Source: Pomacea canaliculata
Lineage: Eukaryota; Mollusca; Gastropoda; Architaenioglossa; Ampullariidae
NCBI RefSeq assembly: GCF_003073045.1
Contig: NC_037599.1
Span: 2,604,001-2,668,000, forward strand
Length of the DNA: 64,000 nt
Direction of reading: 5' to 3'
The notes under the pieces are model-generated. The model saw only the letters and a program-made list of their open reading frames with translations. It had not been told where the DNA came from and did not search any database. The translations under genes were made by a program, and so were the position numbers. Below, piece by piece: positions 488 to 63,379 of this stretch (position 1 is its first letter; each line of letters starts with the position of its first letter).

Positions 488-3400
488 AAACAAACCCATG
501 TGCAGAGGACAACGGTGGCTGTAGTCAGATATGTCATCGCTCTCCTTCAGGCCATATTTGTGATTGTCATCGCGGTTTTCATTTGATGGCCAATTCTACA
601 ACAAAGTGTGTAGACATCAATGAATGCGAGCAGCCAGGTGTGTGTTCTCAGATTTGTGACAACACCCATGGCTCTTACAAGTGCAGCTGTTTGGCGGGCT
701 ACACACTCACTGGCCATCATGTCTGCAAAGCAAATGGTGAGTTAAGGCAGCACAGCACTAGAAGTAGTTAATTTTTGGCATAAAAGTATATAAAAATTGA
801 TGTTAAAATGTCCTCATAATCTTATTATATTTTACTAATGAAATTTTACCTTTTTCTCTTCCCCAGAAGGAGAGCCAGAACTCTTGCTGACAGACAGGAA
901 GGAACTGCGGCGGTACCATTTGGAATCAAACCGCTATTCTCTGCTGCTAGGTGATGGCAATAGTAATGTCTCAGGAGCTACTGCCATTGACTACCATTTC
1001 AGTGCAAATCTCATTTTTTGGACTGATGTATCCCAAGAGCACATTATGAGGTAAGGTTGTAGTTTCAACCTATTATGTACACATAAGAAAGAGTTTCTCT
1101 GCAACTTTGACTCTTGATTAGGTGAATCCTGTAGATTCTAAAACTATAAGGACTACCTTCTGTCTTCTTGCAGAGTAAACATGGAGACGAACCAGATTGA
1201 TGTTGTTGCATCAGAAAATGTAAAGGTTCCTGATGGTCTTGCTGTGGACTGGGTGCATGGGCACCTGTACTGGACAGATACAGGCCTTGATCATATTGAA
1301 GTGGCAACCTTGGATGGCAAAATGAGAAAAATCCTGATAAATGAGGGATTGGATGAACCCCGTGCCATCGTTCTTGATCCTGAAAATGGGTAAGGTTTTG
1401 TCACATTACATTTGACACCAGTGTGCAGTACCAATTGCTTTGCTGTGTGATCTAGCATAAACTTCCTGACTCTGTCTGAAATAAACAAAAAAAAATTATG
1501 TCACTGATATAATATGGTGCTGGAAAGTGTATTGAGTAAGGGACGTGGAAGAGCTAATATAATAATTTGGACTATTATTAAAACCAGTTTTTGTGTCTGC
1601 ATGCAAGACTGACGTTCTTAAACACAGTACTACAGTTTTATAGATGATGCATCCTGTTTCTTTGCAGTTTCATGTATTGGACTGACTGGGGAATGAAGGC
1701 AAAGATTGAGAAATGTGGCATGAATGGCAAGAATCGCAAAGTCCTCATTGAGAATGACATCACATGGCCCAATGGACTGACAATAGGTTTGTAAGCATTC
1801 TATATTTTTCTTTCTTTCTTTTTAAAGGGGTTGTAACAGTACCTTGCTGTAAATGAAATGACTAGCTGTCCTTAAAATAACAAATGGCTACTGTTCACTC
1901 ATTGCAGATTATGTTTCTAGTCGTCTTTACTGGATCGATGCTAAAATACACATGATTGTTAGTACGGATTTGGATGGAAAGAACAGACAAGTGATTCTGC
2001 GAGGGCACCAGCATCTTGGCCATCCATTTGCAATTACAGTTTTTGAGGTATGTGCATGTGTTATAAACACTCAAGAGTATTATTTGAGTATGAGTTTTTA
2101 AATGCTGCATGGAGGACATAAAGACGGAAGTGTATATTTTCATTTTCTGATAAGTATCGAGAATTTATTTTTAGCATAGAGATATGTGCATAATGCAGTT
2201 TGATTCTCAGTTATTGAACTACAGCATAACATTATCAGATTGTGAATATTGGGACAATGTACATTAATGCCATTTCTATCTCGTGTGTGTATATACATAA
2301 AAAAAAAACCAACCTTGCTTCAGAGGCATTGTTTTGTTGTTAGGACTATCTGTACTGGAGTGACTGGCCATCAGAGTCCGTGCGTCGGTATAACAAGTTT
2401 GGCAGAAGGGAAAATGTGACCACCATTGCTCAAGGCCTTGAATATCCCATGGACATTCATGTCTACCACAAATATCGCCAGCATAATTGTAAGTGTCATC
2501 ATTTTCCCTTTCCACACCCCAATACTATGCATTATTTCAGATCTCTTATACTTGTTGGGATTATAATATGCTGCATTTGCAGGGATTTTGACTAAGTGTG
2601 TAAAATGATGCTGGTAGGAAAAAAAAACAGATCTCTTATTACTAGTTTTAAATGTTTTGCTAATGATTGTCTTCTGAAGTTAGAATAATTTTTTTTCCCT
2701 TATCAGATACAAATCGCTGTGGCAACAACAATGGTGGCTGTGAGCAGTTTTGTCTACCAGATACAGAATCAAAAAGTTACACTTGTGAATGCATGAATGG
2801 CTATTACATCAGCCCAGATAACAAAAAGAAGTGCTTATTAGGTAAGAATCTGTTTCTTTCTGGTTTATTTTTTCCTCTTTTTTTTTTAATTCTGTGTGAA
2901 TGGAGAGTGGGAGAGTTCTTTGAGTGTTTTATGTCAAATGAACATCAGAAATTACCAAATTTGTGTATTAATACCAGAAATGCTTCATTAGAAACATGGC
3001 AACATTTTGAAGCTGTGGAGGAAGTGAGTTTAGAGAAATGACGAAGTGCATGATCTTCATAAATTTTTAGTGGTACAGGTTTCGTTTGTGCTTTTTTTTT
3101 AAAAACGATGGGCGATGCAGGTTATTCCCCAGCCTGCAAAAGCTCATGAGCCTCCATCTCAGCCCTACTTGGGCTTTAAATGAGCCACTTAAGGTGAAGC
3201 CCATCACCAGTGGGTTTTGCATGTGGAGGCCACATTGAGCCCTACATGGAGCTGCTTATCACAAAGCTGTCAAAATAGTACATTTATATGGGCAAACACA
3301 CCATGGCACTAGCATGTGGGCTGACCTATCAACTACTTTATGTCCATCAATATTCCACCTCTTCACATTTGTATCGTCTGCACACCATGGCACCACTTCA

Positions 3401-12737: not shown

Positions 12738-15700
12738 ATGGAAAAAGACGAGACCCAGTCAGCAACGAAAGACGAAAGCCAGCCGATCCCCGAGGAAGCG
12801 AAAGAGCTGAGAATGTCTAGAGGAATGAAACCTGAGCTCGTGATCGATTTTGAAAAACTGAAAACACTATTTGTTTATGACGAGATGGGGAATAAAATAC
12901 GTTTTTCAGATATATACAAGAAGCAAAAGACCATTATCATTCTAACACGAGTAAGTATGAATTAACTTCAATTCCATGATTGCGAGTACGTTTATAAGTA
13001 ATGTATAGTACGTATTTATCATACCCTTCCGCAAATACTTCATGTTTTATAGCTTGACGAACGGGGAAAACTAATATTTGTAACCAAGTTTCTAGTAAAA
13101 TCTGTTTAAGACCAAACCATGAAGTTATTATAGGAGCAGCATTTAGATTAATAATTTCATTTTTAAATTATGTCGCTGGTCAATTTTAATTGTCTCCCTT
13201 AGACCATGGACTTCTATTATAGGGCAAGCATGACAGTAACTTTTTGCCTGCCTTTGACAGAAATGCATTTGACAGGTAGCTTTCATGTGCGTGCGTTATG
13301 TCTTTTTAGGTCTGAGTTTTGATAGGTCTAAAATCTGTACACATATTCCTTAAAACATTTGATGTGTTTCAGCATTTGTTGGACTTTATCACAAAGGAGT
13401 ATGTAGAAGGTGAGAGAAACAATAAAGCCAAACATTATTTTGTTTCCATTTGCTCTTGTCATACTTCTCGCCATTTCAAACAGTTTAACACTGTTTTATT
13501 TCTAGTGGTTTAGGTGAATAACTGTTAAGTAGTCTACATGCTAACTACTGGAGCACATGCTAACTATACTGGAATATAAATTTAAATTAGAATTCTCAGT
13601 ATTGGGTGCCTGCAATAATGATACTTTAGAAAAAAATTATATTTTTACACATTTAATGATATTCTATATTGTGGTGTTTCAGATCTGGCTCTTATTCCAC
13701 TAGAATATTTGCAAGTATGTGACCTTTTTTATTATTAGCATAAAGCATTATATGTATATAATTGCATACATAGCCATTACCTATGCAAACAGTAGTAGGA
13801 AGACATTTTGACAAATTGTTTCCAAATCTTCACACATTTTTACAGGGTTTAAATAATGAATAGTTATCGCTTAGAAATTAACACAAATCTGCTATTTCTC
13901 TGATCACTTTATGTAAAATTGTTTTGCATTATGCTATTTAAATAATTCATATAAAAATCTTGTTACAGAGCACTTTTCTATCCCTTAATAACAACGTTTG
14001 CAGAACTTTTATAATTAGTATAACAATTTCTTCTTCTTTCTCAGGAAGTTGATGTCCGCTTAGTGGTTGTAGGACCAGCTCATTATAAATTTATAAAGGT
14101 ATGTTTACCAACAGGTCATTTGGTGGCACATTTTTGAGTATTTGAACTACATGAGATTCTTATTTCTGTATTTTGACCATAATCCTTGTGATAAAACAGA
14201 CATAGCTCAGTGGTTGGAAAATAAGCAACTGAAGATAAATATGCGCTCATTAGCTGCTTAAGCTAATTGGTTATCAGTGTGACATAGTGTAGCTCCCGTC
14301 CCTATCCTCTTTTTTGACCCAGCTATCTGAGACTGTAGAGGGTGCAGGAAGGCATGGCAGGAGGGTCATCCCCTTACAAAATATGACCCAGATCAAGTGC
14401 TTTAACACCTCACTCCCCTCTAACCATAAGGTCACGTGACTACCTTTACCCTTAAAAACTGTTCATTTCACACATAAACTTGTGAATACATCATATACAT
14501 TGCATTCATTTATATTTGAAATGTCTCTTTAGGTATGATGGAGTGTGAGAATGTTTGTGTTGGCAAGCATGTTTATAATGTAATTCACAAATGAATGGAA
14601 ATGCTCATATCTTTGATCGTGGAATGGCTGGTGGTGCAGTGGCTAAAGTGCCTGTCACCATGACAATGAGAATTGGGTGTCATGGATTCGCATCTTTGAC
14701 ATACCTTTGAATATGACATGATTACAGGACTGAATGTTGGTGGTTTTCTCCGGTTTCCTCCACCATGTGTGTTTGAGAGAATAGTTATGATTTGAGTGAT
14801 GGTGAAGGAATTTATAAGATGCATTTAATGCCTACTGATAAGTGGTGCTCAAATAGCTTTATGTATATAAGCATATCAAGCTTGTCTTTGCTGGTGAGGT
14901 AAGATGTTCTGTAAATAAACAATCTTCAATATTTGGTAAGATCATCTAAAAATTTTTATTCTTAACATTTTATGAAATTAAACATCAAATCTGGTCTGGA
15001 GGAATTGTAGTGCAACTATTACATTCATTTTAATAATTAGTTTTTTTAATGATTCATTTTCATTAGCATTAATAAGATTATGTAAAGCTGACATTCATTT
15101 AAAAGTGATATTTCAAAAATATTCCAAACTGTCTTCTCTCTTTATTGGTATAAATGTGTAGGATTTCAAGAAACTCACAAGATACCAGCAAACAATGTAC
15201 TGTGATCCAGATCGTCAAGTATACAAGACATTAGGATGTATAGAGAAACTTGCATGTGGACCACTGAGTGGTAAGTTAGTCTCAGTTATAAAGGCTCCAC
15301 TTTAAATCATACTGAGGCTATGTAATTATGAGAATGGGCACAGTCATGCGCATACTTGTGTCTTTTATCAGGGAAGTTGGAAGGAAAATGGCTAGTGTAA
15401 GTGGTGCTTATCAGAAAACAGTCAACACAGATGTCTTAAAATTCTAGAACTGGTGGGATTGACACCATACAGACACATATATGCTTCACAGTTCTAGGCA
15501 TTAGTTCCTGACAATCGTCAAAGACAATTGTTACCCTTTTATCCTTCATCATGCTGTGTTCTATCAGTAAAGAAAAATATACTTTTACCAAGATTTCCAG
15601 ACATTTTAGACACCCCGTAGAAACATGTTCTCATTTTTCAGGTAAACAAATATAAATACAATCTTGTTATCAGAAGCCCCGGTATATAAATTCTGTTTAC

Positions 15701-17628
15701 AAGAAATTAAGGCTTTTAATTTCCTACCCCAATATTGGTTTTAGGTCTTGTAATAAGAAATAGGGATATGAAAAATCAAATTTTATGGCAAGTGAGAGAG
15801 ACTGTGTGCATCTGTTTAATGGTTGTATAGGTATAAGATAACGTATGGTTTGGAAACCTGGAGAGTGACAAACCTTGCCAGTGGACCCAGTTTTGGGCAT
15901 CCCCCTTCAGTTGGACTCATGTGGTTCTGATGTGCTTTGCCTCGCTCTCTATTGTTCTTTTCCAAGTCTGCTTTAGTCTCCCAACTCTCCTCTTCTCCAG
16001 AGGGTTCCAGTCAAGTGCCTGCTTGGCAATGGCGTCAGCTGGTTTGTGCAGGGTGTCCTATCCAGCCCCATTTGCGCTTTTTGATGTGTTGGCTAGTGGC
16101 ATTATGGTTGGATCTTTTCCACAGGCTGCTGTTGGAGATCTTTTCAGGCCATCTTATTCCCAGAATATGGCGTAGGCATCGGTAGGTAAAGATCTGGAGC
16201 TTGTTGTTGATTGTGTTTGTCAGTCTCCAGGTTTCAGAACCATACAGTAGGACTGCCTTCACACTGGTGTTGAAGATGCAGGTCTTACTGCTGAAGGATA
16301 ATGCTCAGGAGTTCCAGATGGGGCGTAGGCTGTTGAAAGCATGCCTGGCCTTGTTGATATGGCTTTTGATGTCATCATCTGCTCCACCGTCCTTGTTGAC
16401 AATGATCCCCAGATACATGAAGTGGTCTATTTGCAGGATGTTCTCTCCTTGAAGTTGGATTGGGAGTTCCTGCTTGTTGATTCTCATCACTCTGGTCTTC
16501 TTTTTGTTGACCTTTAAGCCAGCCTTCGCTGCTTCCTCTGCTAGCTTGCTCAGTTTGGTCTGTGCATGTTGTTGCTGGTGAGACAGAAGACTGATGTCAT
16601 CTGCAAAGTCCAGGTCCTCTAGCTGTTTGGTGAAGGTCCACTGGATACCGGTGTTGTTGTCTTGGGTTGTCTTGTGTATAATCAGTAATTTTACTCATAC
16701 ATAATACAGTACATTAGTGAATTATAAAGTAATTGTTGTTACGTGTTTATCTTCTTCTACATCATGGTCATATAATTGATAATTCTGCAGGTGTTATCAA
16801 GTGTGAAAACATTATCTAGAGAAACTTAGCATAAAACATAACAGCTCTGTCTTCCCTTTAATTTCCCTCTTTCTTTCCACTTCTTCTTTTTTGACCTCCA
16901 TATACCCATTTCATCATTTACAATCTTCTCTAGGTTTTTTCATATCCTTAATCCATCCAGTCTTCTCACAAGTCTTTGAGCTTTACTTTGGGCTATTTTG
17001 AACCTGTCAGTGGACAAACTTTCTTGTGAGCATTTTTAGTTCATGTTGGTACAGTACTAAACTTCTCCATTGTTGTGTGACAGACAGCAAGCACATAAAA
17101 TCTGGAGCATGGGCAGGAACGTTAAAGAGTGTGTGGCGAGCCATTCAGTACCAGGAGTTTCAGGGGGATGTCAAGCAACAGGGAGGAGCATTCATTTTAG
17201 GACCTGGTATGGGATAATTCTTTATGTAGCTGGAGCACAAGGAATATGCCAATGCTGTGTATTCAAAACTTGGTTTAAAAAATGCACAAGGTGGAAAAAT
17301 GGTTGTTCTCCTAAACTAATCTTCAAAAAATGTTGCAGGCCAGATGTAACATGAGGTAATGCAGAGGATTTCATAAATGTTTCAATGACATTACCTTCAG
17401 CTAACAATCTTTGTTTTTGTCATTGAGCTTATTATGATTTTTCCTGTCATTGGGGTAATTTTCCAGAAAAGATTGTGACCGACTCAAAATCTGCTTTCAG
17501 GAGAGGAAGTGCACTTTTCTCACTTAGATGAATCATCAACAGATCACACGAACATTAATGAGTTGCTGAGGGAGGCTGGAGTGCATCCAGTCAACTTTCC
17601 CAAGGACAAGCCAGTCATCCATATCTAA
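12738..17628 (+). CDS. PRXL2C: Peroxiredoxin-like 2C (AhpC/TSA domain protein AAED1)
   Basis: Exons 12738-12950, 13373-13409, 13683-13714, 14045-14098, 15162-15270, 17084-17206, 17501-17628; all phases fit, giving 231 residues (human about 226). The thioredoxin-fold protein aligns over its whole length with human PRXL2C: FSDIYKKQKTIIILTRH, KEYVEDLALIPLEYLQ, VDVRLVVVGPAHYKFIK, YCDPDRQVYKTLG, FQGDVKQQGGAFILGPG and the C-terminus PVIHI. The start is the first ATG in frame with the conserved region, preceded by a charged, poorly conserved stretch. Oddity: after RH the exon at 13373 reads LLDFITKEYVED, where the human protein as I recall it has a CxxC (FLCYICKEYVEDL). Both expected redox cysteines are Asp and Thr here. 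Three other Cys lie in exon 5. The sixth intron carries a LINE piece. Function in animals is poorly defined. Confidence 0.93.
14626..14705 (+). repeat. SINE fragment (tRNA-like head)
   Basis: Begins GGCTGGTGGTGCAGTGGCTA and continues with GCCTGTCACC, matching the head of the SINEs at 53650, 56027 and 61648. A GGATTCGCATC resembles a B box. It lies in the fourth PRXL2C intron. Confidence 0.6.
15871..16680 (-). mobile_element. Non-LTR retrotransposon fragment (RTE-like reverse transcriptase 3' part)
   Basis: Read on the minus strand it encodes the C-terminal part of a reverse transcriptase: FADD in a LDFADDISLLSH context (about 16596-16607), then VNKKKTRVMRIN, MYLGIIVNKDGGADDDIK, LLYGSETWRLT and KWGWIGH. 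One in-frame stop follows RPIWNS, so the copy is dead. It is 5'-truncated and lies antisense in the sixth PRXL2C intron. The 3' end shares GCCAGTGGACCCAGTTTT (plus-strand reading) with the small copy at 26773. The clade is a guess. Confidence 0.85.
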
Positions 17629-29400: not shown

Positions 29401-32400
29401 AATTGTTGGATACAATGTCTTTAGTTGTCTGAATAATAAGCAATTTATGTAGCATGTGATCATGCTCATAAAGGAATATGTTCTCAGCATTTGAGACAAA
29501 AAGAAGACATGGACAGCATATGATGGAATGGATGGATAAACAACAGTACAGACAGAGATATTATAGATAAAGGAGACACAGACAGGAATGGGTAACAAAC
29601 GGTGACAACTTAGAGTTAATTACATTAATCTGCCGAGGGAGACAGGCAGTCAGACAAGCCCTTAGATGTCATTGAAGTGAGAGAAATGTTTACCAGATGG
29701 ACTAGCATTATGTAAACTGTCAGGAGCAATGCTCATGGAACAAATGTGTTTTAAATGCACGTTTGCAGGTTTCGATGTTTGATAGGTGGCAGGAGAAGTT
29801 GAGAAAACTTCACCATTCTGCCGCACATAAGCTAAAAAGTTGGTGACCGTATGTTATTGTTTTAGTGACAGGAATAGTTCACATATGGTCATTTTGCTTC
29901 ATTGATGCTGTATCTAAGACCAGAACTATACTTTGCAGGGTACCCACTGCATGCACCAGAGGCCTACTTTCCGTATTTCCGAAAACATAAGGTGGCAGCC
30001 ATTGTTCGTCTAAACAAAAAAATTTATGATGCCAGACGTTTCAAGGATGCAGGCTTTGACCATTACGATCTGTTCTTTGTGGATGGGAGTGTCCCCACTG
30101 ATGTGATTGTCCGTCAATTCTTGGAGCTGGCTGAAAATTCAGATGGTGCTGTTGCTGTTCACTGCAAAGGTGTGTTTTAAGCAGTCTTAACACAAATTCA
30201 AGAGGTGACAGATATTGTCAGTAGCTTTGGTGAGAGAACTGCTACATCATTGTTTGAAAGTTTCATCCATTTTTAATCAATGAAGCGGTAGGTTGATAAT
30301 ACAATAACAATATATGACTTAATCCTGGATTTTTTTTGTGTGCCTTTTTGAGAAAAAAAATTATCACTATTTTTTTTAATGAGTTCACTTGTATTCATTT
30401 ATTTTAACATTTATTTTTGCTATAATAATTTAGTACTGATTTCACAATTGCAATGAAATTTTTCATGCAGTGATTTTTTTTTTTTTTTGCTTTGACAAAA
30501 TTGCCCCCAAATAATTACATTATTGACTGAGCTAGTTTGTCATGCTTATCTGTGGCAAGTTCAATAATGTAGAAAAGCTCAGAGAAATACAGTGCACAAA
30601 AGAGCACTAAATTGTTAGTGCATTCCTGTTTGTCCCCAGATCTTTGTCTCTGTTTACTGCAGTAAGGCTTTAGCTGTGCACTAGGTGCTGGCTTCTATGT
30701 CTTCATTTCTGTTTTCTGGTACAGAGAGTAACCATGACATTCGCAGACTTTGCTGTTTTCAGCTGGTCTGGGTCGCACGGGAACACTAATTGGTTGCTAC
30801 ATCATGAAGCACTACAAGTTCACTGCCGCAGAGGCTATTGCCTGGTGTCGTATTTGTCGTCCAGGATCGATCATTGGTCCTCAGCAGAACTTCTTGGAAG
30901 AGTAGGAACAGTAGTGTGACACACATCTTCTCATAAGCTAGATGAATGGAATTCTAGCATATATTAATGGGCATGGGTAGTGGAGAAAAGGTTTTGAGAA
31001 TGCTGAAGCCTAGTCATGTTAGGAAATTATGTTTTAGGGGAATGAAACTATATCTGCTGTGTTAGAGGGTTAGGAAATGGGAGTGTGAGATGCAATTGAA
31101 TAGAAACTTTCATTTACGTTTTATTGTTTGGGTGTGGAAGCTGTTGCAGATGTGTGTACGTAGACCATAGATATTAGTGTGTAGATAAGGTATTTTGAAT
31201 TAAAAGCAAAGATGTCATCAGTTCCTCTAAGCTGGAAATTTTAGGATAAGGCCAGCAGTTCTTTGCGTTTAACTAATTTTACTCATTTAAGTTAATCAAA
31301 TAAATTCAATTTATCATAGACAAGGCATCTTTAAATAGTAATGAATATAAGATTTTATGTTAGCTGTACTCTAGAATTATTACCATTATGTATGACTTGA
31401 CATATTTTATATAGACAGATTTTTTGTTGTATATAAAATATGTCATTACATGGATTATGTTAAATATTTTGTCAGGGTTCCCAGGTCCTTGCAAGGTCCT
31501 TTTAAGTCCTTTTATATTGAATTTTCGCCAAAAGGCCTTTTAAGTCCTTTTATTTGCCATGCGGTCCTTTCAAATTCTCACACAGGTCCTTACATTTTCT
31601 CTGTGACCCTTTTAAGTCCTTTTATCGATAAAATATTACAACAAATTTATTTCCGGAGTAGACTTTGGCGCAAAATACCGACGATTTTTCGCTGCATTGC
31701 TATTTTAATCACATGACTACCCAGTCTCGCTCGCAGCGGGAACGTCCGTTTCGGCCTTTCGCGAGTTCACTCTCGTCGTGTCGACCACATTTCTTTGTCT
31801 GCTTAACAATTTGAAAGATGCCGGGGAAGTGCTCTTTTCAGGAGAAGTGGCTAAAGGAAGACAAGTATAAAGATTGGTTAATAAAAGACTCGAGCAATAA
31901 ACATTTGGCACGATGTGCTGCCTGCAAAATATCTCTGAATCTTTCATCAATGGGCGAAAGTGTTCTGAAACAGCACATGGTTACCGAAAGACACCAAAGG
32001 CAAATAAAAGTATTTCTGAAAGATGCGCGCTTTTGTGTAACTGATTACTTTCGTCATCGAGAACATCCACAGCCCGCTCAAAATCAGACGGCACCGACCA
32101 GCTCTGCAAGTGTGTCCAGTAAGTTGACAATTATTTATCTTTAGCGATTCATTTAGTTAACGATGTGGGTACTTAGAAAAACACATTAAATTAAAGCGTG
32201 CATAACATTTTGCGGTTTTTTTCCACTCTTTATTAAGCCTATCGTCTAATTTACGGTGAAGCCAATAGCTTAAAGATCAGTAAATAGCAAAGAATTATTT
32301 AAATTAAAAAGTTGAGATTTTCATTTTCTCATGATTCGAACTACAAATAGAGTTTTATACAATCACGAATCTTACTACAGCTTTGCTGCAGAAAATTGAT

Positions 32401-35400
32401 CTGAATTTTTGGCATCTGATCAGGAAAGATTAAAAAGAAAGTATAATTAATAATGTATGCTTATTATCCTATTTTACCAGCAAATACATTATTTTTTGGA
32501 TTTTTAAAATCAAACAATTTAACATTAAAGCTAAATCAGTTAGCTGAAAAATAACTTTCATTTTCAACTATGCTGCCATCTTTATACTTTAACTTAGTTT
32601 AGTATTATTTATATTATCATGTCATTAATTATTGCTTTTTGAAACCTGTCTTTTATTCAGACAGAACATAATGTTTACAGACATAATGGTAACTTAAATG
32701 TTTTCTTTGAATAGGTTTCGTGATGAGCAATGAACGATTGAAGGCAGAGATCCTGTGGACTCTCAAGATTGTGGAATCACACTACAGTTTCAGATCTGCT
32801 GAAAAGTCTGCTGAACTGTTTCGACTTATGTTCCCAGACAGCCAAGTAGCTGCAGAATTTAAGTGCGGTCAAACAAAAGCCAGTTATCTAACTTCATTTG
32901 GGCTTGCTCCTCACTTTTCGAAATTGCTTCTGGACTGTGTAAATTCGTCGCCTGAGTATGTTCTTTTGTTTGATGAATCTTCTAACCATAAGACTCAAAC
33001 TAAACAGCTGGATTTCCATGTTCGTTACTGGAGTGACAATGCTGTAAGGACTCATTACCTGACCTCGGAATTTTGGGTCATTCCGCGGCCATAGACCTTC
33101 AACAAAAGTTCAGTAAGGTAATTAGCGAATCAAACTTCAAGCAAGCTAATTTACTTCAAATTTCTATGGATGGACCTTCTGTAAACCTAAACCTTCTTGA
33201 GAAAATTAATAACGACATGATTACCAATCACAATGTTGGTTTGTTAAATGTGGGCAGCTGTGGACTCCATGTTATGCACAATGCATTTAGGCGTGGGTGC
33301 GAGGCTTCTCAATGGGAGCTTGAGTCATTTCTTACATCTGCTTATATCTTGTTCAGAGACAGCCCAGCCAGAAGAGAAGATTATATAAAAGTAACTGGTT
33401 CCACATCTTTTCCAGCCAAGTTCTGTGCTCACCGATGGCTTGAAAACAATTCTGTTGCTGAAAAAGCAATTGTTATGCTTCCATACTTGGAAAAATTTGT
33501 CAAAGCTGCAATGGAGAAAAAAATAACATTGCCAAAGAACAAATCTTTTGATATTGTAAAAGCTGGAGTCTTATCTACCCCTTTGCTTTCATGTCGTCTG
33601 GCTTTCTTTAGTTTAATTGCCAGTATACTTGAACCGAAAATACCAAGCTGATCAGCCTCTTCTTCCTTTCCTTTGTTTAGACTTACATGAAAAATCTGAT
33701 GCACAAATTTATCAAGTCAAATGTACTTAATAAATGTGAAACTGCCCTCCAACTTGTGCAGGTTGATATATGCAACAGTTCTAACCATGTCAATCTGAGC
33801 ATGATCGAACTTGGCTTCAGGGTTGATAGACTACTGGCTGTAGCTAAGAAACAGTCATCAGTAAACGATGGAACTCTCATGGCCTTCAGAGCTGAATGCA
33901 GAGATTTTTTGAAAGCAGTTGTTCTAAAATTGCAGGATAAATCTCCACTGAAGTACACCCTAGTGAGAAACATAACTTTCTTAAACCCAAAGACCATGGG
34001 GGAAAAAGACAAATCAATACAAAAAATGAAAAAGGTTTTGTTGTATTGCCAAGGTGTGAAAAGGTTTGATGATGTGACTTGTGACAAGGTATTGTCAGAG
34101 TTCCGTAATTTTCTTGACAGTTCTGCAGGTGAGTGGTAGTAAGGCTTTTGACCCTATGACACAAAGACTGGATAGTTGGTTTTATGATGCCCTTGCTGGA
34201 AAAGCAGAGTTTCAGGTGTTGTGGTCTGTTGTCAGACAGTTACTCCTACTCTCTCATGGTCAAGCTACAGTGGAAAGAGGATTTTCATTCAACAAAGAAA
34301 CAGTAGCTGACAATCTTAGCCAGACTGCACTAAAAGCACGCAGAGTAATTCTTGATCATATTCACAGTGTGGGAGGGGTGGAAAATGTTGAGATCTCCAA
34401 ACCACTGATGATATCCGCTTCTAGTGCCTATGGCAGGTATGAACGTTACCTCTCTGAGCAGAAGCAGCAGAAGGAAACAGAAGAAAAGCAGGTCCACAGA
34501 AAGAGATTAGGAGATGAGCTGGTAATACTCACAAAAAGGCTAAAGACCACCAGTGCCGAAGAACGACACCTGCTGGAACTGGCTGACAGACATAGTTTCC
34601 AGGCTGAAGAGCAAAAAAGTTTTTCACTTATTGAAAGATCTAACAACATGCGTTTGTTAGCCAAAGACAAGAAGAAGGAGATAACAAAGATTCAGTCAGA
34701 CATTGATAGATTACAGGAAGAAATTAAAAGGTGTTGAATTGTGACATTCAGAATTAATGTTTATTTCAGTTTAAATAAGCCTGCACAATTCTGTACATGT
34801 ATGCTATGGAACATGTTAAAAAACCAGAACTATTTAGAGGAAATTAGGTTGTGTAAAGAAATTGTATTGTTTAGTATTGGTAAAGCTGTAGGGGTGACAA
34901 AGAATTGAATTTCATCAATGAAACTTTTGCTTATAGTAGATGGATTGCTTTGTCATTTTGTAATCTTAATCTTATGTGTATTAGTATATCATGCTGTTTA
35001 TGTATATGTTTGCATGTGTTACATGTATGTGTAATAAGAATGCTTAAATAATATCTCAAGGTTAAAAATAAATGGGCTGTAATGCTTGACAGTTTCGACT
35101 CATTCCATCTTTGGTTTAGCATTAGGATCACACTCTTTTCATTCCTCATCTGATCCTCCAATCCTTGGCATTCCTTGTAGTCACAAGAAAATGTTTGGTC
35201 TACACATCTGTACAACACTAGTTGCCCTTCCGTATTCGCAAAAAACGCTCTTTTTTTCAAAAGTTCTTTAGAAACTTACTCTTTCTTGAACTTTGATCTT
35301 CTAGTACTACTGTGCATAGCTCTATTTCTATCTCTCTCTTCCCATTAGAGTGTGTGTGCGAGAGAGAGACACGTGAACTGACTTTTGTATTACACCAAAG

Positions 35401-38400
35401 AATGGCTTTCAGGTTTTGCAATTATTATTACTTAGATTTCTAGAAAACTTGGAACATTAACGATGTATGTTATCAGCGCGCTAAGGACACTTTTTAAGTT
35501 ATCTAATCTAAATATGGCAGACAGGCATCAAAATTAACTCTTTGATTATTTATTACTAGAAATACATGTATTTGAGAACATAGAGAAGACCACAGATTCA
35601 TAAATAATACATCTTTCCGACCACACAAGAGAAAAACTTAAGCATTGATGACTGTCACTTAGGTCCTTACGAATGCATGAAAGGTACTTTTAAGGTCCTT
35701 TTTTGGCACCATCCCTGATCCCTGGGAACCCTGTTTGTTCATCTTTCAAGTTTTCTAACCTCTATAGATGTTTGTGTTTTTAGAGCAATTTCCCCTAATA
35801 TTTTGTATTTAAACTCTATGTTTTTGTTTTTATGATGATCTTATGATATATTGGTTACAGGAAACAGGCTTGGCTATGGATGCAAGGGGATTTGTATCGT
35901 GCTAAACATAAAGCTGACTTCAAAGAACGCCAACGAGAGCGTCACCATAGTGTGTCTAATCTTCTGTCCAGTGTAGATGATATGCGGATCCATGATGCAA
36001 TCGAGAATGACAACCGATTTAGCTCTTACGACAATGTGAGCATTTGTATAAGCATTCATTTGTAGAACTTTGACAATTGTCTTAGCTCCCAACCCATCTC
36101 AGCTATCGCAGAAGTGTTTTTTGAGTGAGTGGCTTTGCTGTGACAAACAGAGAGATGTCTTATGATTTGCTTCCCTAGAAATTATGCTGCACATTATTTT
36201 TTCTATTCAGTCTTATTAGACATATCCTGCAAGAAAAATAAAATAAAAAAAATGTTTGCTTAGAATTCCCTTATAATGAATGCTTCCATAGCAATACAGT
36301 GACATTTAACAGCAAAGGTTGTTTTAAAGTTGGGGATAAAAATGAGATTCATTATATGCAGGGCAACCAGACAGGAAGGGGAGCTGTTTTTAAGTTTTGA
36401 AAGGTGTTCTGAATTAGTGTGGTTATATAATTTGCATTGACGTGATGCCTACCTGTACATTGAGGTGTACCTGTGATCCTGTTGCAGATCTATGACCCTC
36501 CCATCACACGTAGCTCAGATGTGGAAACTCAGGGTGACAAACTCAACCAGCTCAAGCTGCTGCGGAAGCACCCTCGCTCAGCAACTACAGGCACGGTCTC
36601 TGTGTAAGTAGACAGTTATCAAACAGGCAAATCAAACTTTTGGTTGGCTGTTGTGTGTTCATGGATTGGACAAGCTTTAATTGAAAGTGAACAAGTTAAC
36701 AAATTTGATTTGTTACAAACTTCATTAATTGCTGGTGGGATGCAAACCAATGTAAACATAAAAGATAAAGAGACAAAGCATAACTGATTTTTTTAACTTA
36801 TTTATTTTTTTGCTGCATAACAATGATGAATGTGCCAATGTATCTATTGTTTGTTTTTTGTTGTGGCACGCCGCATGTATCTTTACTGATATCTCTTTGG
36901 CACAACATGGTGTTCAGTGAATTTTATTTCTAGCACTTTTAAGTCCTAGAATGCTAAGTATTTGTAATAATAAATTTACTAAATGAATCTATTTGAATCG
37001 TTGTCTTTCCTACAAATGTATGGCGGCTATCATATTAGTAAACTCATTTTATGATCAGTAACTCCCTTTTTATTTTGTTTAAATTTTGCATGTCACTGAA
37101 CACCATACCTTATTTGGTGCCATCTTGACTCTGTGAATTTGGATCCACAGTTGCTTTATAACTCCTGTCAAACTAGAAGTAAAATCATTCCAACCTCTTT
37201 TTCAGCATATTTTGCTAAACTTTATGCCTTCTTTCACCCTAGCTTTTCATTTGCCCTCTGAAATGTACTAAGTGTCAGTTTAGGAATACCTGAATCATCA
37301 GAGCCCACTTCAATAAATTTTCAGCTTTGTCTAAACTCAAACTTGAGCAGCTGTGGATTTATGTTAAATGATGCAGCCAATAAGCTGTTAAAATGCATAC
37401 TAGTCAAAGAACATTTTGTTAAAAAATGTGAAGAAGAATGGACATCAGAAGAATCTTTTGATGAGACGTAGTATAATCAATCCCTTAAAACTGACATACA
37501 GTGCACGCGAACACATGTGAATATATGCATGCATACCAGAGAGATAGGTAAGTTCTCAGTATTACAGATAGTATAAGAGTTTGTGTTCACAAATGCAGTG
37601 CGTTCCCATTAAGGCAGAAACTGGAAAAGATTGATGCTCTGTACTTTTTTAAAAAGTGTACGTTACACACATAACAGGAGTTGATTTGTGCAATTCGTGT
37701 CTACTGCTTTGAGCCAGTCATTGCCCTTGATTTTAGAGAGCATGATGAGGAAGGGAAATGCTGCTTTGAGCTTGCCGTTTGCTGTATCTGCATGTGGCAT
37801 ATAGATCTGACTGCCCTGCATGAAAATGTGGTTAAAAGTTGACAGCTGATGGCAGAGATTTATAAAATTAAGAATTTACTTCCTTTCTTCATGTTATAAA
37901 TTTCATTCCTCTGTAGAGCACACTCTGGTCAGAACATGAAAAAGATTTTTATGACATTTGTTGCACTCATGCTTTACATCCCTCATTTCTTATGTCATCA
38001 GTATGCTTCTGTCATATACTGTCTACTCTTGCATGTTCTTGTAGATGCACTTAGTTTCCATTTTCATTGTGACTTTTCACAGGAAGATGGTGTCACAGAA
38101 CAAACTTCTGTAGACTTTAGTTCTTTGGGTTGTGTACAATGGTTTTAATGATGTATGAAAGGACCAGAATTAGTTTCTTAACCTGATTACAGCAGTATTG
38201 CTGTTGGGGCTAGGATTAGTTTCACTCATTGGCATTATTTTACATGATGGGTTATCTTTTCTCCAGAACAACACATTTTGTAACTTGTGAAACAAAAGTA
38301 TCTATACACATCAATAAAAAGCTACTTTTAAACAATAATTTAAGCACCAAAAGATTGTTTTTATTTGAAATTTGCATGCCATTGTCATTGCACAGTCAAC

Positions 38401-41400: not shown

Positions 41401-44400
41401 GACAACCAGTACCAGCACAAAGAGGTATGGGTAAAAAATGTGCTTTTGAGTCACTTGCCTTCAACCACAAAAATTTCATGTTTCATTTTAGTATGACCAT
41501 AGCTCTGTGTGATTTTAGGTTGCATTGTACCTCTTAGCTTTAATACTTGTTGAAAGAGAGTCCCTCCACGGCTCCTCATTCTTTACAGAATTTCCTGTGG
41601 AGTTGATTGCTGACTGCTTGGCATTTGAAATGCTGTATTTGCACTGCAGCTACCTGTAGTGTATGTGATGATTGCTGCTGACTAAGCTTGTTGATTTTTG
41701 GTAGCAAAAGGTGGAGTACAGGTCTTATAACCTAGTTGCTATAGTGGGTTGTGGATGTTGCAGAGCTGTTTTCCCTTACACAATTTTTCTATATTTTTGG
41801 GGGAGAGGAATGAGGTGCAACATGTAGATATGATTTTTTTTTATTTGTGATGTGATATTGTGGCTACCACAAACCCTACCCCCTCCCACTTTTTTTAAGA
41901 TCTGTTTCATTACATTTCTATATGATCTTTCAGAAATGATGGATTTAATTTGAGAATTCTAAAACTTGACTTAGCAGCATTAACAGCAGTCCTACAGTTA
42001 AGGTCATACATTCACAAAAAAAGAAAATTGTGCACCACAAGACGAGTAAAAAACACATGCACAAAATAGGTATTGTTGAAAGTTCATCTCCCATTACTTT
42101 TCTACAAGAATTGCCTTCATAACAAGCTAGGAAAAAAAAAAGAATGGCATCTTCAGGTCACAAATATTGAAGCAGTACTTTACACCATTAGAATAGTTTA
42201 CAAAATTGACGACTTTAACTTGATAGTCAGCAGTAAACATTTTCACCAGAACAGTGATGTAGATGTTCCCAGACTGAAGTAACACAGAAATTCCAATGTG
42301 GATGCAACAAGTCAGTTGCTTTGTAAAACATCTGGCATTCTGAGAAATATTGTAGAGAGAGAGGAAATTGTTGTGAGCCTTTGTAGCACCAGTAGTTTTA
42401 TGATATAAATATAGATTAGCCAGTTATATCAAGCTGCAAATATGGAAATATTTTTCAGTATGTGCAATTTATTAATTTTTGTTGGGGAAAGTTATGATTT
42501 TATGCATAAATAATAAGTGTGATCCCAAGAGTTTACAAAGGGTTAATTATCAACAGTTGTGTATTAAAGGGGATACAAATTCCCTCACCAAATGTAGTTT
42601 TAATTGCTTTAGATCAGTGATGCCCAACCTTTTTCGGCCTGCGGGCCATACACATTTCCGACAAGAGTGTCACGGGCCGCTTCACCTCAAACAAAAAAAA
42701 AAGTAATAGAGCAGATGCCATTTTTATTAGAAACAAGTTGTACTTGCCGTTAATTATGTAGTAATTAGTGGGATATTTGAAGTTGTTTACCCGAAACCAA
42801 CTTTGGAATGTCTGGCTGCATCGTAGAGACACCAAGTCGGAGCACTGAATCGAAATGTTCGTCCATTGAAAAAAAAAATTGAGAGATGCCCCATACGTAG
42901 GGATAAATACTTCTTCTTCCCTTTTTTTTTCGTTCTTTTTTTTTTTAAGGTCTTTTTTTTTTATCACTAGCATGCCGATTTCCTGCACTGTGGGCAGAAG
43001 TTTCGCGGGCCGGATGGCACCGCGTCGCAGGCCGAATATGGCCCGCGGGCCGTAGGTTGGGCATCCCTGCTTTAGATGAATGTAGTATCACATTTGCATA
43101 TGTAGTTAGTATATGGGACATTTGCTTACAAGATGTCCAGATGTCACAACTCTGTCTCTCTCTGACCTTAAGAAGTCTACTGTAATCAGGGTTCCCAGGT
43201 CCTTACAAGGTCCTTATAAGTCCTTACATATTGAATTCTCGCCGTAAGGCCTTATAAGTCCTTATATTTGCCATGCGGTCCTTACAAATTCTCACACAGG
43301 TCCTTACATTTTCTCTGTGACCCTTACAAGTCCTTATATCGATAAAATATTACCACAAATTTATTTTCGGAGTCAACTTTGGCGCAAAATACCGACGATT
43401 TTTCGCCGCATATTTGGTCTACACATCTGTACAACACTAGTTGCCCTTCCGTATTCGCAAAAACACTCTTTTTTCAAAAGGTCTTTAAAAACTTACTCTT
43501 TCTTGAACCTTGATCTTCTAGTACTACTGTGCATAGCTCTATTTCTCTCTCTCTCTTCCCGTTAGAGTGTGTGTGCGAGAGAGAGACATGAACTGACTTT
43601 TGTATTACACCAAAGAATGGCTTTCAGGTTTTGCAATTATTATTACTTAGATTTCTAGAAAACTTGGAACATTAACGGTGTATGTTATCAGCGCGCTAAG
43701 GACACTTTTTAAGTTATCTAATCTAAATATGGCAGACAGGCATCAAAATTAACTCTTTGATTATTTATTACTAGAAATACATGTATTTGAGAACATAGAG
43801 AAGACCACAGATTCATAAATAATACATCTTTCCGACCATACAAGAGAAAAACTTAAGCATTGATGACTGTCACTTAGGTCCTTACGAATGCATGAAAGGT
43901 CCTTATAAGGTCCTTATAAGGTCCTTACTTAGCACCATCCCTGTCCCTGGGAACCCTGTGTAATTAAGGTGCAAGCATGCATTCATACACGTGGTTGCAT
44001 AGTTTCAACATAATTCAGCTGGTGAATTTGCATGAAGAAGGGGGTTAATATATATTTTTATAACTAATCGGCATTAAGACAGTGGATTACAATAAGGTCT
44101 CATTTCATACTTTAGCTGGGGCAAACAATATTGTATTATAATGCTGCATAATTAATGTGTCCAAAGCAAAATTGAAGTTTTAATTGTTCTTGTTTCTAGA
44201 AGAAACCAGATGCATAGTTTGCGGAAGAGTATGCACACTAGGTATGGGTTTATGTATGTGTATTGTAGAGCAGCACCCTATTTTTTTTTTCTGGTCATGC
44301 ACTAATTTTTGTGCTGTGGTTGGCTGTTGTAACAACAGTGTCATGCCTTTCACCACACATACCACCCTCCTGATCATTCTAGTGATTGTCTCCACACTCC

Positions 44401-53649: not shown

Positions 53650-53820
53650 AGGGCAGTCTGGTGGTGCAGTGGTTAGCACCTGTCACCAGTTCAGGTAGAA
53701 ATGGTTGTCCTGTGTTCAGATCTTATCTCGAACATGCTGCTTTTTCTCTGCATGTAGCATGTTTACAGGGCTTAGTTTCTGGCTTGGTATAAAACACCAA
53801 TTTTGTTCTTCTCCTTTCAA
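53650..53820 (+). mobile_element. tRNA-derived SINE, diverged copy
   Basis: Head GTCTGGTGGTGCAGTGGTTA followed by GCACCTGTCACC, then TTTTTCTCTGCATGTAGCA, GTTTACAGGGCT and a GGCTTGGTATAAAACACCAA tail. It is the same family as 56027, with more changes. Confidence 0.8.
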
Positions 53821-56026: not shown

Positions 56027-56250
56027 GGGCCCGGTGGCACCACGGTTAGTGCATCTCGCCGAAACAGTGAAGGCTGTCTGTCCTGGATTTAGCTCTTGTC
56101 TCGGGCACACTTTTCTTTCTCTGCATCTGACATCTGTTTACAGGACTGGCTGCCTTGCCGTGATACAGATATAGTTGTTGGCTCGGTGTAAAACACCAAT
56201 TACCCAGCTCCCCTAGGTTAGCTTCTAGAACGGTGTTAAACCATAAATTC
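56027..56250 (+). mobile_element. tRNA-derived SINE, near full length
   Basis: Starts GGGCCCGGTGGCACCACGGT (A-box-like), has TCTCGGGCACACTTTTC and CATCTGTTTACAGGACTGGC, and ends with GGCTCGGTGTAAAACACCAA and a run to about 56250. This 3' tail differs from that of the copy at 61648. No clear target duplication was seen. Confidence 0.85.
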
Positions 56251-57023: not shown

Positions 57024-58061
57024 CTAGATGGGGAACAAAGCAGACCGGCGACCTCTGAAGTGTCTAATAGCTCTCACCTCAGGATCCATGACTCTGAGTT
57101 CATTCGTACTTTGACGAGGCTTCTGAGCGCTAACAGCGGCCTGCCATACTACTCCACTCTCGCCTGTACTATTGGCAGGAGAAACCGTCACTCCGTTGAC
57201 ATGAATGCTACTGGTCTCCACTGTGTCATCAGTAGATTCACGAAACAAACAGTTAACAGCATGACTTTCGGCGATGATATGATGGTTGGATAGTAGTTCG
57301 ACGCAATTCTCTTGTTTCGATGTAAGTTCGTCGATGAACGTCAGCATCGCTTCATCGTCCTTGACCCCCGAAGACTCGACCTCCGCATCGTCACCTCCAG
57401 CCGGAGCGCGAAGGGGGTCAGTTTCGTCGCTAGAGGAGTTGACAGTTTCCTCCTGCGATCCCCCCAAGGAAAAGTTCAGGTGGTCTTGACCAGGCATGCG
57501 CAGCTTTAACGGAATGCTTACTACTTGCTGGAGAGCTTCCGATGGGCGTGGTTTTTCTCTTTGTGGAAGGAACGATTCGTTGTCGTTGTCCTCGGTGTCA
57601 TCGACCTTCTCTGGGTTGTTCTTGTGATCCGAGTTCTCAAAGCTGCTTCGCGCGTGGCGAGAACTCTTTGACTCGGCATGCGAGGTGAGTTTCAGGTGGC
57701 GACGCTGTCCCAGCGTGGAACACATGAGGGCGCTGGTCTTGAAGCGAAGTACGCGAAACTGGTTCCCGTTCATGTTCACAGGATGGTGTCCATTCTTGAG
57801 GTAGAGCGAGATCTGACGCTCCTCGTCTTTGTTAACATGTCGCTTCTTCACGTGGCTGCCAATGAAGGCGACGATGCTCAACCCGTAGATGCACACTACA
57901 GCGACGCAGAACAGAAAGGCACCCTTGGGGTCTTCTTCGTAGGATGGGGTCGCGGGAACGTCGGAGGAGTTTTGTTGGATGTTGGTGCACAACGAGGAAG
58001 TCGTCACCGAGGTCATCGTGAACAAGTAAGACTCACTCGACTGATCTGTTGCTGACTCCAT
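57024..58061 (-). CDS. Single-span membrane protein, KCNE4-like potassium-channel beta subunit candidate
   Basis: 345 codons uninterrupted, from the ATG at 58061-58059 to the TAG at 57026-57024. An ectodomain of about 46 residues has one N-glycosylation site (NSS at residue 31). A single membrane span (about 48-68, FLFCVAVVCIYGLSIVAFIG) is followed by SHVKKRHVNKDEER. Span position, the YG inside it, the basic border and DEER resemble KCNE4 (YG...KSKRREK...DEERLW as I recall it). KCNE subunits modulate KCNQ and other Kv channels. The cytoplasmic tail of about 270 residues is Ser/Asp/Glu-rich, longer than in vertebrate KCNE4, and has no other domain I recognise. A minus-strand acceptor (CCCCTTTCAG) lies 27 bases before the ATG, so a 5' UTR intron is likely. 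There is no signal peptide. It is CpG-rich compared with the other genes. The family call is tentative. Confidence 0.6.
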   Translation of the reverse strand: MESATDQSSESYLFTMTSVTTSSLCTNIQQNSSDVPATPSYEEDPKGAFLFCVAVVCIYGLSIVAFIGSHVKKRHVNKDEERQISLYLKNGHHPVNMNGNQFRVLRFKTSALMCSTLGQRRHLKLTSHAESKSSRHARSSFENSDHKNNPEKVDDTEDNDNESFLPQREKPRPSEALQQVVSIPLKLRMPGQDHLNFSLGGSQEETVNSSSDETDPLRAPAGGDDAEVESSGVKDDEAMLTFIDELTSKQENCVELLSNHHIIAESHAVNCLFRESTDDTVETSSIHVNGVTVSPANSTGESGVVWQAAVSAQKPRQSTNELRVMDPEVRAIRHFRGRRSALFPI

Positions 58062-58099
58062 GATGAAAGAAACTTATTTCTTCGAACACTGAAAGGGGA

Positions 58100-59484: not shown

Positions 59485-59642
59485 CAGACCAAGATCACTC
59501 AGGCGTCAGAGGTACCGTAAATAGGTTACTAGGTATGCAGGGTACCCGGCTTTACTCGGGTTGATTTCTGTCGCTGTCTCTTCCAATTGGGATTATATTG
59601 TCAGCTGTCGGTTCATTCGAGCCAGCATATTCAAAAGAGGCA
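59485..59642 (+). repeat. 158-bp duplicated block, copy 1
   Basis: Matches 62875-63032 in the same orientation over exactly 158 bases without indels and with about three to four substitutions. It begins CAGACCAAGATCACTCAG and ends AAAAGAGGCA. Unclassified. Confidence 0.9.
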
Positions 59643-60353
59643 ACTTTTTCTGTAGTATTGTTTTGGATGTGACTGGGTTTTTTTTTTTCTTGACGGGAGA
59701 GGAGCGGACGGGTTTTTCTATTGCAAAAAAGTCTTGAACGACTTGTGGTGTAGTCCTGAATTTGCTACTTATCTAAAGATTGGTTTTGATTTTCTCTCCA
59801 GGTTTTCTTTGTGTTTTTATTTCACTTTTGGTTAATTGTTGTTCGTCTACTCGCCTTATCCGCCTGGGGTTCCTGACCAGCGCTGAGTTGAAAATAATTT
59901 CAAGAAGATTCCTCGTCTGAAAGGCACTGTAGAGTGCAGGTGACATACTAGAGGCCCCGAAAGGTGTTGAGGGTCAATTTTGTGCAGTTTGACTTTTCTT
60001 TAAAAATGGATTCCTTGGTTATTGAACTAACAGGAAAATACACTGCTATGTTAAACTAAAAGTTAGAAATTGTCTTAAAAAACATTTTAATCGAGGTACC
60101 CCCAGGCGATCCGTCCTGATTTCCACAGGAAAATGACGAAATTCAAACGCTGTTTTGGTATTGTTTCCCTGTAAGAACCGCACTGTCTTATACCTTGCTA
60201 GAAAGCCCGGAGTCTGTATTTTCAATCTGTTTAACGACTGATTCAAGTATTAACCAATCAAAAGACCACTAATCCCCTGTGGAATGCGGCTTCTCTCGTT
60301 CTCAAACACTGGTTCCTTCCAAAGACGAAAATCAAGAATGAAATCTATCAAAA

Positions 60354-60525
60354 GATTGAGAGACGCCCCTACGTAGGGATGAATACTTCTTCTTCCCTTT
60401 TTTTCGTTTTTTTTGGGTTTTTTTTTTTTCATTATTATTACTAACATGCCGATTTCCTGTACTGTGGGCAGAAGCTTCGCCGGCCGGACGGCACTGCTTC
60501 GCGGGCCGTAGGTTGTGCATCCCTG
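60354..60525. mobile_element. Right-end fragment of the 42615-type MITE
   Basis: Shares CTACGTAGGGAT, the C/T-rich tract, CATGCCGATTTCCTG, CTGTGGGCAGAAG and the terminus GGTTG.GCATCCCTG with the element at 42615. The left end is missing. Confidence 0.8.
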
Positions 60526-60529
60526 ATGT

Positions 60530-60836
60530 ATATCAATACCAAGATTCTCATTTGACATTGAGTTGCTAATTCCCCCTTGTGGGGGATGGGATCGAACCTG
60601 GAGCTGCTTACTGCCAGGCCGACCCGTGAGAGACTTGGGGTCTTGCCACGAATACTACGAGGAGGTCTACCTTCAGTTTAAGTCCAAAGTCCTCCGGAGT
60701 AGGACGTATCAGACTTAACCTGAGGACGACTACAACCAGAATGGAATTAGAGTACTTGCAGAGATCTGGCAACCCCAACGACCCTAACGTCCACAACATT
60801 TTAGTCTGGCTTTCCGTGATATTCGGGTTGAGCAGT
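60530..60836 (+). repeat. Unclassified repeat, copy 1
   Basis: Begins with ATTTGACATTGAGTTGCTAA (about 60549), has a CGACCCGTGAGA block, and ends in a 34-base segment (60802-60835, GGCTTTCCGTGATATTCGGG) identical to 62253-62286. The copy at 62070 is shorter internally. Confidence 0.65.
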
Positions 60837-61507: not shown

Positions 61508-61518
61508 ATGTATAAAGT
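61508..61518 (+). repeat. 11-bp target-site duplication, left
   Basis: ATGTATAAAGT directly before the 5S sequence; the same 11 bases follow the poly(A) at 61923-61933. Confidence 0.92.
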
Positions 61519-61636
61519 GCCTACGGCCATACCACGTTGAACACACCGGTTCTCGTCCGATCACCGAAGTTAAGCAACGTCGGGCCCGGTTAGTACTTGG
61601 ATGGGTGACCGCCTGGGAACACCGGGTGCTGTAGGC
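61519..61636 (+). rRNA. 5S rRNA sequence (head of a composite SINE)
   Basis: 118 nt with GCCTACGGCCATACCACGTT at the 5' end, the internal promoter blocks AGTTAAGCAACGTCGGGCC and TACTTGGATGGGTGACC, and the 3' end CTGTAGGC. The terminal stem GCCTAC/GTAGGC pairs fully, so the copy looks intact. It is followed by CTTTTG at 61641-61646, a possible Pol III stop. Because it lies inside a target-duplication-bounded insertion, it is a retroposed copy rather than a member of a 5S array. Confidence 0.93.
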
Positions 61637-61647
61637 AAACCTTTTGA

Positions 61648-61922
61648 GCGGCCCGGTGGCGCAACGGTTAGCGCTGTTAGCGCCTGTCACCAATACAGTG
61701 AAGGTTGGCTGCCCTGAGTTCATTTCTCGTCTCGGGCATGCTGTTCTTTCTCTGCACGTGGCATCTGTTTACAGGGCTGGCTGCCCTCCGCCAAGGACGG
61801 TCCCAAGCCCGGCTGAAAAAGGAGGAGGGTTGGGCGTGGGGCCTGCACCCCAACCCCGTAAAACAAATCCTTGCTACCAAAACATCGACAACAGGAGGGG
61901 CGAAGGGCCTAAAAAAAAAAAA
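61648..61922 (+). mobile_element. tRNA-derived SINE portion with variant 3' tail
   Basis: Head and body match 56027 and the minus copy at 63520 (CTGTCACC, CGTCTCGGGCA, TTCTCTGCACGTGGCATCTG, TTTACAGGGCTGGCTGCC). After that the tail diverges fully and lacks GTGTAAAACACCAA. The B box is poorly preserved. Confidence 0.85.
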
Positions 61923-61933
61923 ATGTATAAAGT
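61923..61933 (+). repeat. 11-bp target-site duplication, right
   Basis: ATGTATAAAGT immediately after the poly(A), identical to 61508-61518. Confidence 0.92.
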
Positions 61934-62069: not shown

Positions 62070-62286
62070 TATCAAGATTTATTATTTGACATTGAATTGT
62101 TATTTCCCCTTCTGGGGAGTGGGTCGCAGGTCGACCCGCGAGAAAGGTGTGGACATACAGCCGCACTATCTGGAGCAAAATGTTAAAGCGTATTATTAGC
62201 TAATGTTGGCAAAACACCTGTACAACTAATGTTTCTAACGTTGACAACAGTATAGTCTGGCTTTCCGTGATATTCGGGTTGAGCAG
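62070..62286 (+). repeat. Unclassified repeat, copy 2
   Basis: ATTTGACATTGAATTGTTAT near 62089, CGACCCGCGAGA, AACGTTGACAAC and the 34-base block 62253-62286 follow the same order as in 60530-60836, with an internal deletion and many substitutions. Confidence 0.6.
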
Positions 62287-62773: not shown

Positions 62774-62874
62774 CAGTGATGCCCAACCTTTTTCGGCCTG
62801 CGGGCCATATCCATTTCGGACAGCTGTGTCGCGGGCCATATCCATTTCGGACAGCCGTGTCGCGGGCCACTTCA
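62774..62874. mobile_element. Left-end fragment of the 42615-type MITE with internal tandem duplication
   Basis: CAGTGATGCCCAACCTTTTT then GCGGGCC; a unit of about 34 bases containing ATATCCATTTCGGACAGC occurs twice. The fragment runs directly into the second copy of the 158-bp block. Confidence 0.8.
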
Positions 62875-63032
62875 CAGACCAAGATCACTCAGACGTCAGA
62901 GGTACCGTATATAGGTTACTAGGTATGCAGGGTACCCGGCTTTACTCGGGTTGATTTCTGTCGCTGTCTCTTCCAATTGGGATTATATTGTCAACTGTCG
63001 GTTCATTCGAGCCAGCATATTCAAAAGAGGCA
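62875..63032 (+). repeat. 158-bp duplicated block, copy 2
   Basis: Same block as 59485-59642, starting exactly where MITE homology ends. Confidence 0.9.
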
Positions 63033-63379
63033 GCAATTTAGAGAAATAGCGAAAGGTCTACACTTGCTATTTCTTCTCTAACTTAACGGTTTGAGTGAAG
63101 CTAGCAAGTTACTCGCTCATTCGTTTGCTTTTCTCCCCTCCGTCGCTTACTCAACTTTCGCTCCCAATCGGTGCCATCTAAAGTTATAACATAGTCCACT
63201 TTTGATCTACCTAGTAGACGTATGTTGCAGTTTCATTTGTGTAGCTTTTGTTTTTTATTTCTATCATCTGAAGCCACGATAACTTGAATTTTAATAGCTT
63301 CGAATTACCTAAAGCACAGGCGTACACATACGTCCGTCATCATAACTACAGCACTTTTCAAGGAGGTCTGTGTGTGTAG
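63033..63379. other. Intergenic, nothing recognised
   Basis: No coding, repeat or RNA signal that I can support. Confidence 0.4.

Follow-up and report, generated by a model that had tools for sequence, protein, structure and literature searches.

A 404-bp insert at positions 61519-61922 of the window (the whole 64-kb stretch of DNA that was analysed) joins a complete 5S rRNA sequence to a SINE, and a single target-site duplication brackets the two together. From its 5′ end, the insert consists of the 5S rRNA, a short linker, the head and body of the SINE, a 3′ module and a poly(A) run (Table 1). That this is a real chimera of 5S rRNA and SINE is confirmed. As for its origin, we lean towards one recent retroposon insertion by a LINE reverse transcriptase that jumped from the SINE RNA to a 5S template. 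Chimeras of 5S rRNA and tRNA-derived SINEs made by LINE machinery are already a known kind and have been reported in other animals; new here are the core of a twister ribozyme in the 3′ module and a TTTT at the joint, neither of which was mentioned in the preliminary description of this DNA.

Table 1. Parts of the insert, its target-site duplications and the related SINE pieces in the window.
Feature	Position	Strand	Identity to insert	Basis
5′ target-site duplication ATGTATAAAGT, 10-11 bp	61508-61518	.		exact repeat of 61923-61933
5S rRNA sequence, complete, including the type 1 internal promoter region	61519-61636	+		Rfam, pairing, fold
Linker AAACCTTTT, 9 nt, ending in TTTT (T4 at 61642-61645)	61637-61645	+		sequence, T-run count
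Head and body of tRNA-type SINE, 5′ end complete to about 2 nt	61646-61785	+		BLAST, alignment to window copies
3′ module with twister-P1 core	61786-61910	+		Rfam match 61784-61833; exact CGGTCCCAAGCCCGG at 61798-61812
Poly(A), 12 A	61911-61922	+		sequence
3′ target-site duplication ATGTATAAAGT	61923-61933	.		exact repeat of 61508-61518
Related SINE piece	56028-56154		75.7%	BLAST of insert against window
Related SINE piece	53672-53772		76.7%	BLAST of insert against window
Related SINE, two pieces	63521-63419	-	70.8% and 90.7%	BLAST of insert against window
Related SINE piece	5508-5542		85.7% over 35 bp	BLAST of insert against window
Weak related SINE piece	14647-14669			BLAST of insert against window

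The duplication ATGTATAAAGT abuts the first base of the 5S rRNA and directly trails the poly(A), and no further copy of it occurs in the window; the 9-mer inside it, TGTATAAAG, has one extra occurrence, at 25420. Since the A-tail runs into a repeat that itself begins with A, the duplication is either 10 or 11 bp long. Hence, the 11-bp duplication put forward earlier is present as an exact repeat at both ends of the insert, with its length to be read as 10 or 11 bp; the poly(A) is also present, its exact extent being 12 A plus the A of the duplication. A chance repeat in the AT-rich flanks was rejected because 11 exact bases at both ends are rare: when the flanks were modelled as a first-order Markov chain, with 0-2 nt of slack permitted on each side, 2 of 400,000 trials gave at least 11 matching bases at the joints, a figure that is only a guide given that the flanks contain an imperfect local repeat (ATGTTCATGTATAAAGT / ATGTTCATGCATACAGT).

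No exact repeat of at least 4 bp was found around the SINE half alone (left end at 61634-61655, right start at 61918-61927). With one duplication around the whole and none around the SINE half, both halves were inserted in one event, as had been proposed; a duplication bracketing the SINE half only, which the preliminary description had named as the observation that would speak against this, is absent from the copy at 61508-61933. For the same reason, we reject a resident 5S gene with a SINE inserted behind it. Two successive insertions are likewise rejected, since neither a poly(A) nor a duplication lies between the halves. The insert has the make-up of a chimeric retrogene, that is, a small RNA in sense orientation followed by a retroelement, one duplication around the whole and a 3′ poly(A). 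Chimeric retrogenes of the 5S/LINE-1 and U6/L1 types have been described (PMC13174262), as have tripartite chimeras with target duplications in a fungus and in mouse (PMC2104539), and these share with the insert a 5′ small RNA, a 3′ retroelement and one duplication.

The Rfam 5S_rRNA model matches 61519-61637 on the + strand with 118.6 bits over model positions 1-120, which makes the 5S sequence complete, and all 34 consensus pairs are standard (three of them G-U). The complete 5S rRNA with a paired stem, as first described, is borne out by these matches. The capital consensus columns of the model agree at 36 of 41 positions, and the predicted fold has an MFE of -50.1 kcal/mol (z = -3.02), with none of 200 shuffles equally stable. 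Compared with human 5S, 102 of 118 positions agree; within approximate box limits, the agreement is 12/15 for box A, 5/6 for the intermediate element and 17/18 for box C. The putative internal promoter region is complete by both the Rfam match and the pairing, in line with the earlier claim. The insert has this 5S-derived head in common with 5S-headed SINEs of the SINE3 class, which are further marked by many copies of one head/body joint, each with a target duplication of its own. The observed/expected ratio of CpG is 1.04 in the 5S versus 0.43 in the window. Together with the standard pairs and the start at the first base, this ratio indicates that the 5S has decayed little, which points to a recent capture, be it as a one-off, as the founder of a family or as a young family member.

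The head and body of the SINE half are common to other copies in the window, as seen by BLAST and by alignment. A box A-like motif (61657-61667) fits a tRNA-derived head and a box B-like motif (61716-61726) is weak, both being judged by eye. The earlier claim of a SINE joined to the 5S is borne out by the shared head and body; its derivation from a tRNA is qualified by the weak box B. ARAGORN found no tRNA in the window, and the absence of such a call is usual for SINE heads. The head of the insert's SINE carries a 9-bp tandem duplication (61667-61684) that is absent in four aligned window copies. The folds of the SINE head and of the 3′ module are no different from those of shuffles (z = -0.26, -0.37 and -0.46). 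Four window copies were tested for their own duplications, with 11 bp found in one, 8-bp candidates only in another, and none of at least 8 bp in the remaining two. The 11-bp case is the copy at 53649, whose duplication, TTTCAAAGCAG, fixes the SINE start at GAGGGC. The insert's SINE starts with GAGC at 61646, which matches that start to within about 2 nt; thus, the joint brings two complete RNAs together at their ends. At the other end, the insert differs from the window SINEs: AAAACACCAATT, exact or with one letter changed, closes four of the five other copies (the copy at 14647 terminates otherwise), and the 3′ module of the insert is absent from all of them.

Such a build could also belong to an amplified composite family with the 5S head and the tRNA head in tandem, of which the insert would be a young copy; Pol III would pass the T4, and the whole RNA would be retroposed. 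We consider this possible, if rather unlikely. The 5S promoter region is complete, 5S-headed families do exist (PxSE4 with 4415 copies and PxSE5 with 1952; PMC8010984), and it may be argued that large families are likelier than one-offs to be represented in a random window. Against it stand the T4 at the joint and the lack of a second copy in the window: across the 64 kb, Rfam gives no second 5S match with an E-value of 1 or below and places no 5S ahead of any other SINE copy. A single copy is in itself compatible with a one-off, a founder or a young family member alike.

The T4 deserves closer attention, as it is the only run of at least four T in the 404-bp insert. It is a potential Pol III stop, and a transcript begun at the 5S would meet it directly ahead of the SINE. 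However, it may be a weak one, since three longer SINE copies in the window have a T4, T5 or T6 inside the body. Given these T-runs, the T4 is a moderate rather than a strong argument against a transcribed composite. In the simplest reading, AAACCTTTT would be the 3′ trailer of a pre-5S rRNA and the T4 its U-tail, to which the 5′ end of the SINE RNA would have been joined; the linker ends in the only T4 of the insert, as would be expected if a Pol III transcript ended there in a U-tail. The accessible text of a paper on Donax 5S genes offers nothing that bears on this trailer.

The same linker could be the 3′ flank of a 5S gene if a SINE had landed behind such a gene elsewhere and a joint Pol III transcript had then been retroposed at the present site. 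Read-through of this kind accounts for the complete 5S and for the one duplication around the whole, yet it requires both that the SINE landed exactly behind the T4 and that transcription ran past it, and we think it very unlikely. Primary Pol III transcripts bear a 5′ triphosphate and a 3′ OH, which are not the ends that RtcB joins. This weighs on a further proposal, in our view an extremely improbable one, in which retroposition acted on a chimeric RNA already formed by ligation of the two. Ligation would account for two complete RNAs joined end to end, and RtcB has been considered as the joining enzyme in the case of LINE-1 chimeras (PMC13174262); by sequence alone, its product is hardly distinguishable from that of a jump.

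The insert departs from the SINE body at 61786, and it is around this point that the twister-P1 match of Rfam begins (61784-61833). Its score is 28.2 bits, versus a gathering score of 67.2. The E-value is 0.067 for the whole window; it is 6.3e-4 for a span of 601 bp and 1.1e-4 for one of 101 bp, both spans having been picked after the finding was known. The 15-mer CGGTCCCAAGCCCGG occurs exactly at 61798-61812, where 2.3e-6 exact copies would be expected in the window. By itself, a twister core pattern with at most three mismatches is not rare, at least one being present in 13 of 100 shuffles. The conserved core of the P1 type, CGGUCCCAAGCCCGG ... GAGGG, is present, and 26 of the 35 capital columns in the model line match; the UAA of the cleavage site is among those lost. 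A working twister ribozyme, which would have this UAA together with P1 and a score above the gathering cut-off, was rejected because the cleavage site is missing. With the UAA deleted and the score below the cut-off, the match is a remnant cut off between the cleavage site and P2, for which no activity is expected. Other Rfam matches in the module (sR34, CDKN2B-AS, mir-1825 and others) lie below their own cut-offs and were set aside.

RTE retrotransposons are stated, as work in preparation, to have conserved at their 5′ ends twisters that are truncated and nevertheless competent (PMC7761336), and an RTE 5′ end is therefore the probable source of the 3′ module. SINEs that incorporate RTE 5′ ends are on record as well, among them MAR4, RTESINE1 and Bov-A2 (PMC3747384). 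The RTE LINEs with a truncated 5′ twister and the SINEs built on RTE 5′ ends resemble the insert in having a twister core in a retroelement module. They differ in that the insert's twister lacks the cleavage site and is not expected to self-cleave. The remnant would thereby point to RTE as the partner. It also gives shape to another alternative, namely a young SINE family composed of the complete 5S, the complete tRNA head and a body made in part of a twister-bearing RTE 5′ end, amplified by means of the captured 5S promoter. We regard this as doubtful; if true, it would be a SINE caught in the act of changing its promoter type.

Returning to the template jump, the LINE reverse transcriptase would prime at the nicked target and copy the polyadenylated SINE RNA (tRNA head, body and a 3′ module probably derived from RTE) to its 5′ end. 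It would then jump onto a 5S or pre-5S rRNA at its 3′ end and copy through to the first base, and the joined cDNA would be sealed in, leaving a single target duplication around the whole. Target-primed reverse transcription with such a jump fits how the parts are ordered, the one duplication around them and the junction of two complete RNA ends. These features are observed directly, as are the complete 5S, the 5′-complete SINE half and the T4 between the two; the jump itself, the pre-5S trailer and the RTE source are what we infer. In its anatomy, the insert fits a composite family no better than it fits a recent chimera made by a template jump, and with a potential Pol III stop at the joint it suits a recent capture better than an old composite family. 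In mammals, 5S/L1 chimeras are usually truncated and in antisense orientation (PMC13174262), which counts against the template jump; in the insert, by contrast, the 5S is complete and sense, and the 3′ partner is a SINE. An argument from a GCC switch site was dropped, since the GCC of the Magnaporthe chimeras sits in the template that is left, unlike the joint of body and module here (PMC2104539).

SINEs with 5S heads are thought to arise by a jump of the reverse transcriptase from SINE RNA to 5S rRNA. The preliminary description placed such elements in fish and in a few mammals; the kind is indeed known, and a moth supplies a further case. HaSE3 of Helicoverpa armigera is a chimera of 5S rRNA and a tRNA-SINE, for which its authors propose template switching from the tRNA-SINE RNA to 5S rRNA (PMC3272025). 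Like the insert, it has 5S rRNA fused to tRNA-derived SINE sequence. However, HaSE3 shares only the body and the 3′ tail with the tRNA-SINE HaSE1 (PMC3272025), while the insert keeps a complete tRNA head behind the 5S; furthermore, HaSE3 is a family, and the insert is known from one copy. SINE3/AmnSINE1 and other 5S-headed SINEs (PMC3747384) also place a 5S head with a Pol III promoter before the SINE, and these are again amplified families, as opposed to the one copy in the window. The 5S and two exon-like ORFs with EGF-type Pfam matches suggest an animal host, and the label "molluscan-type" that the preliminary description gave the SINE would agree with what is known of such SINEs. In the literature covered, which omits most subscription papers, no report of a 5S/tRNA composite SINE in a mollusc was found, and the term "5S rRNA" does not occur in the accessible part of a paper on bivalve transposons (PMC10294476). 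Exact patterns for the 5S, the joint, the SINE and the twister gave 0 matches in viral and genome contig collections without animal genomes, a result that is silent on copy number; blastn of 61519-61922 against plasmids and phages, in collections likewise without animal genomes, gave no match.

Amplified 5S-SINE families display the diverged outcome only. As both RNAs of the insert look complete and little decayed, and a possible Pol III stop is retained at the joint, the founding step may here be on view.

The window holds other repeats. A 165-bp direct repeat, 96% identical (98.1% over 158 bp by BLAST), lies at 59485-59649 and 62875-63039, 3390 bp apart, and flanks the composite. Dispersed repeat pieces pair 42873-43034 with 60350-60508 (83.6%), 60784-60835 with 62235-62286 (92%), 60545-60575 with 62079-62109 (84%) and 42615-42678 with 62774-62837 (89%), and a 31-bp unit stands in two tandem copies, 97% identical, at 62800-62861. 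Two longer pairs are found at 35191-35734 and 43410-43959 (94.8% identity) and at 31472-31697 and 43186-43411 (92.0%). An ORF piece at 16305-16694 (- strand) matches Pfam RVT_1 (E = 6.9e-8) and is a LINE remnant. At 32711-34737 (+ strand), four ORF pieces (127-219 aa) that overlap or adjoin one another, none of the four with a Pfam match, resemble one broken coding region, and a 349-codon open frame at 57024-58073 (- strand) has no Pfam match at E = 0.01. Finally, exon-like ORFs at 421-771 and 2667-3041 (+ strand) match FXa_inhibition and other EGF-type Pfam families, and perhaps belong to an LDL-receptor-like host gene.
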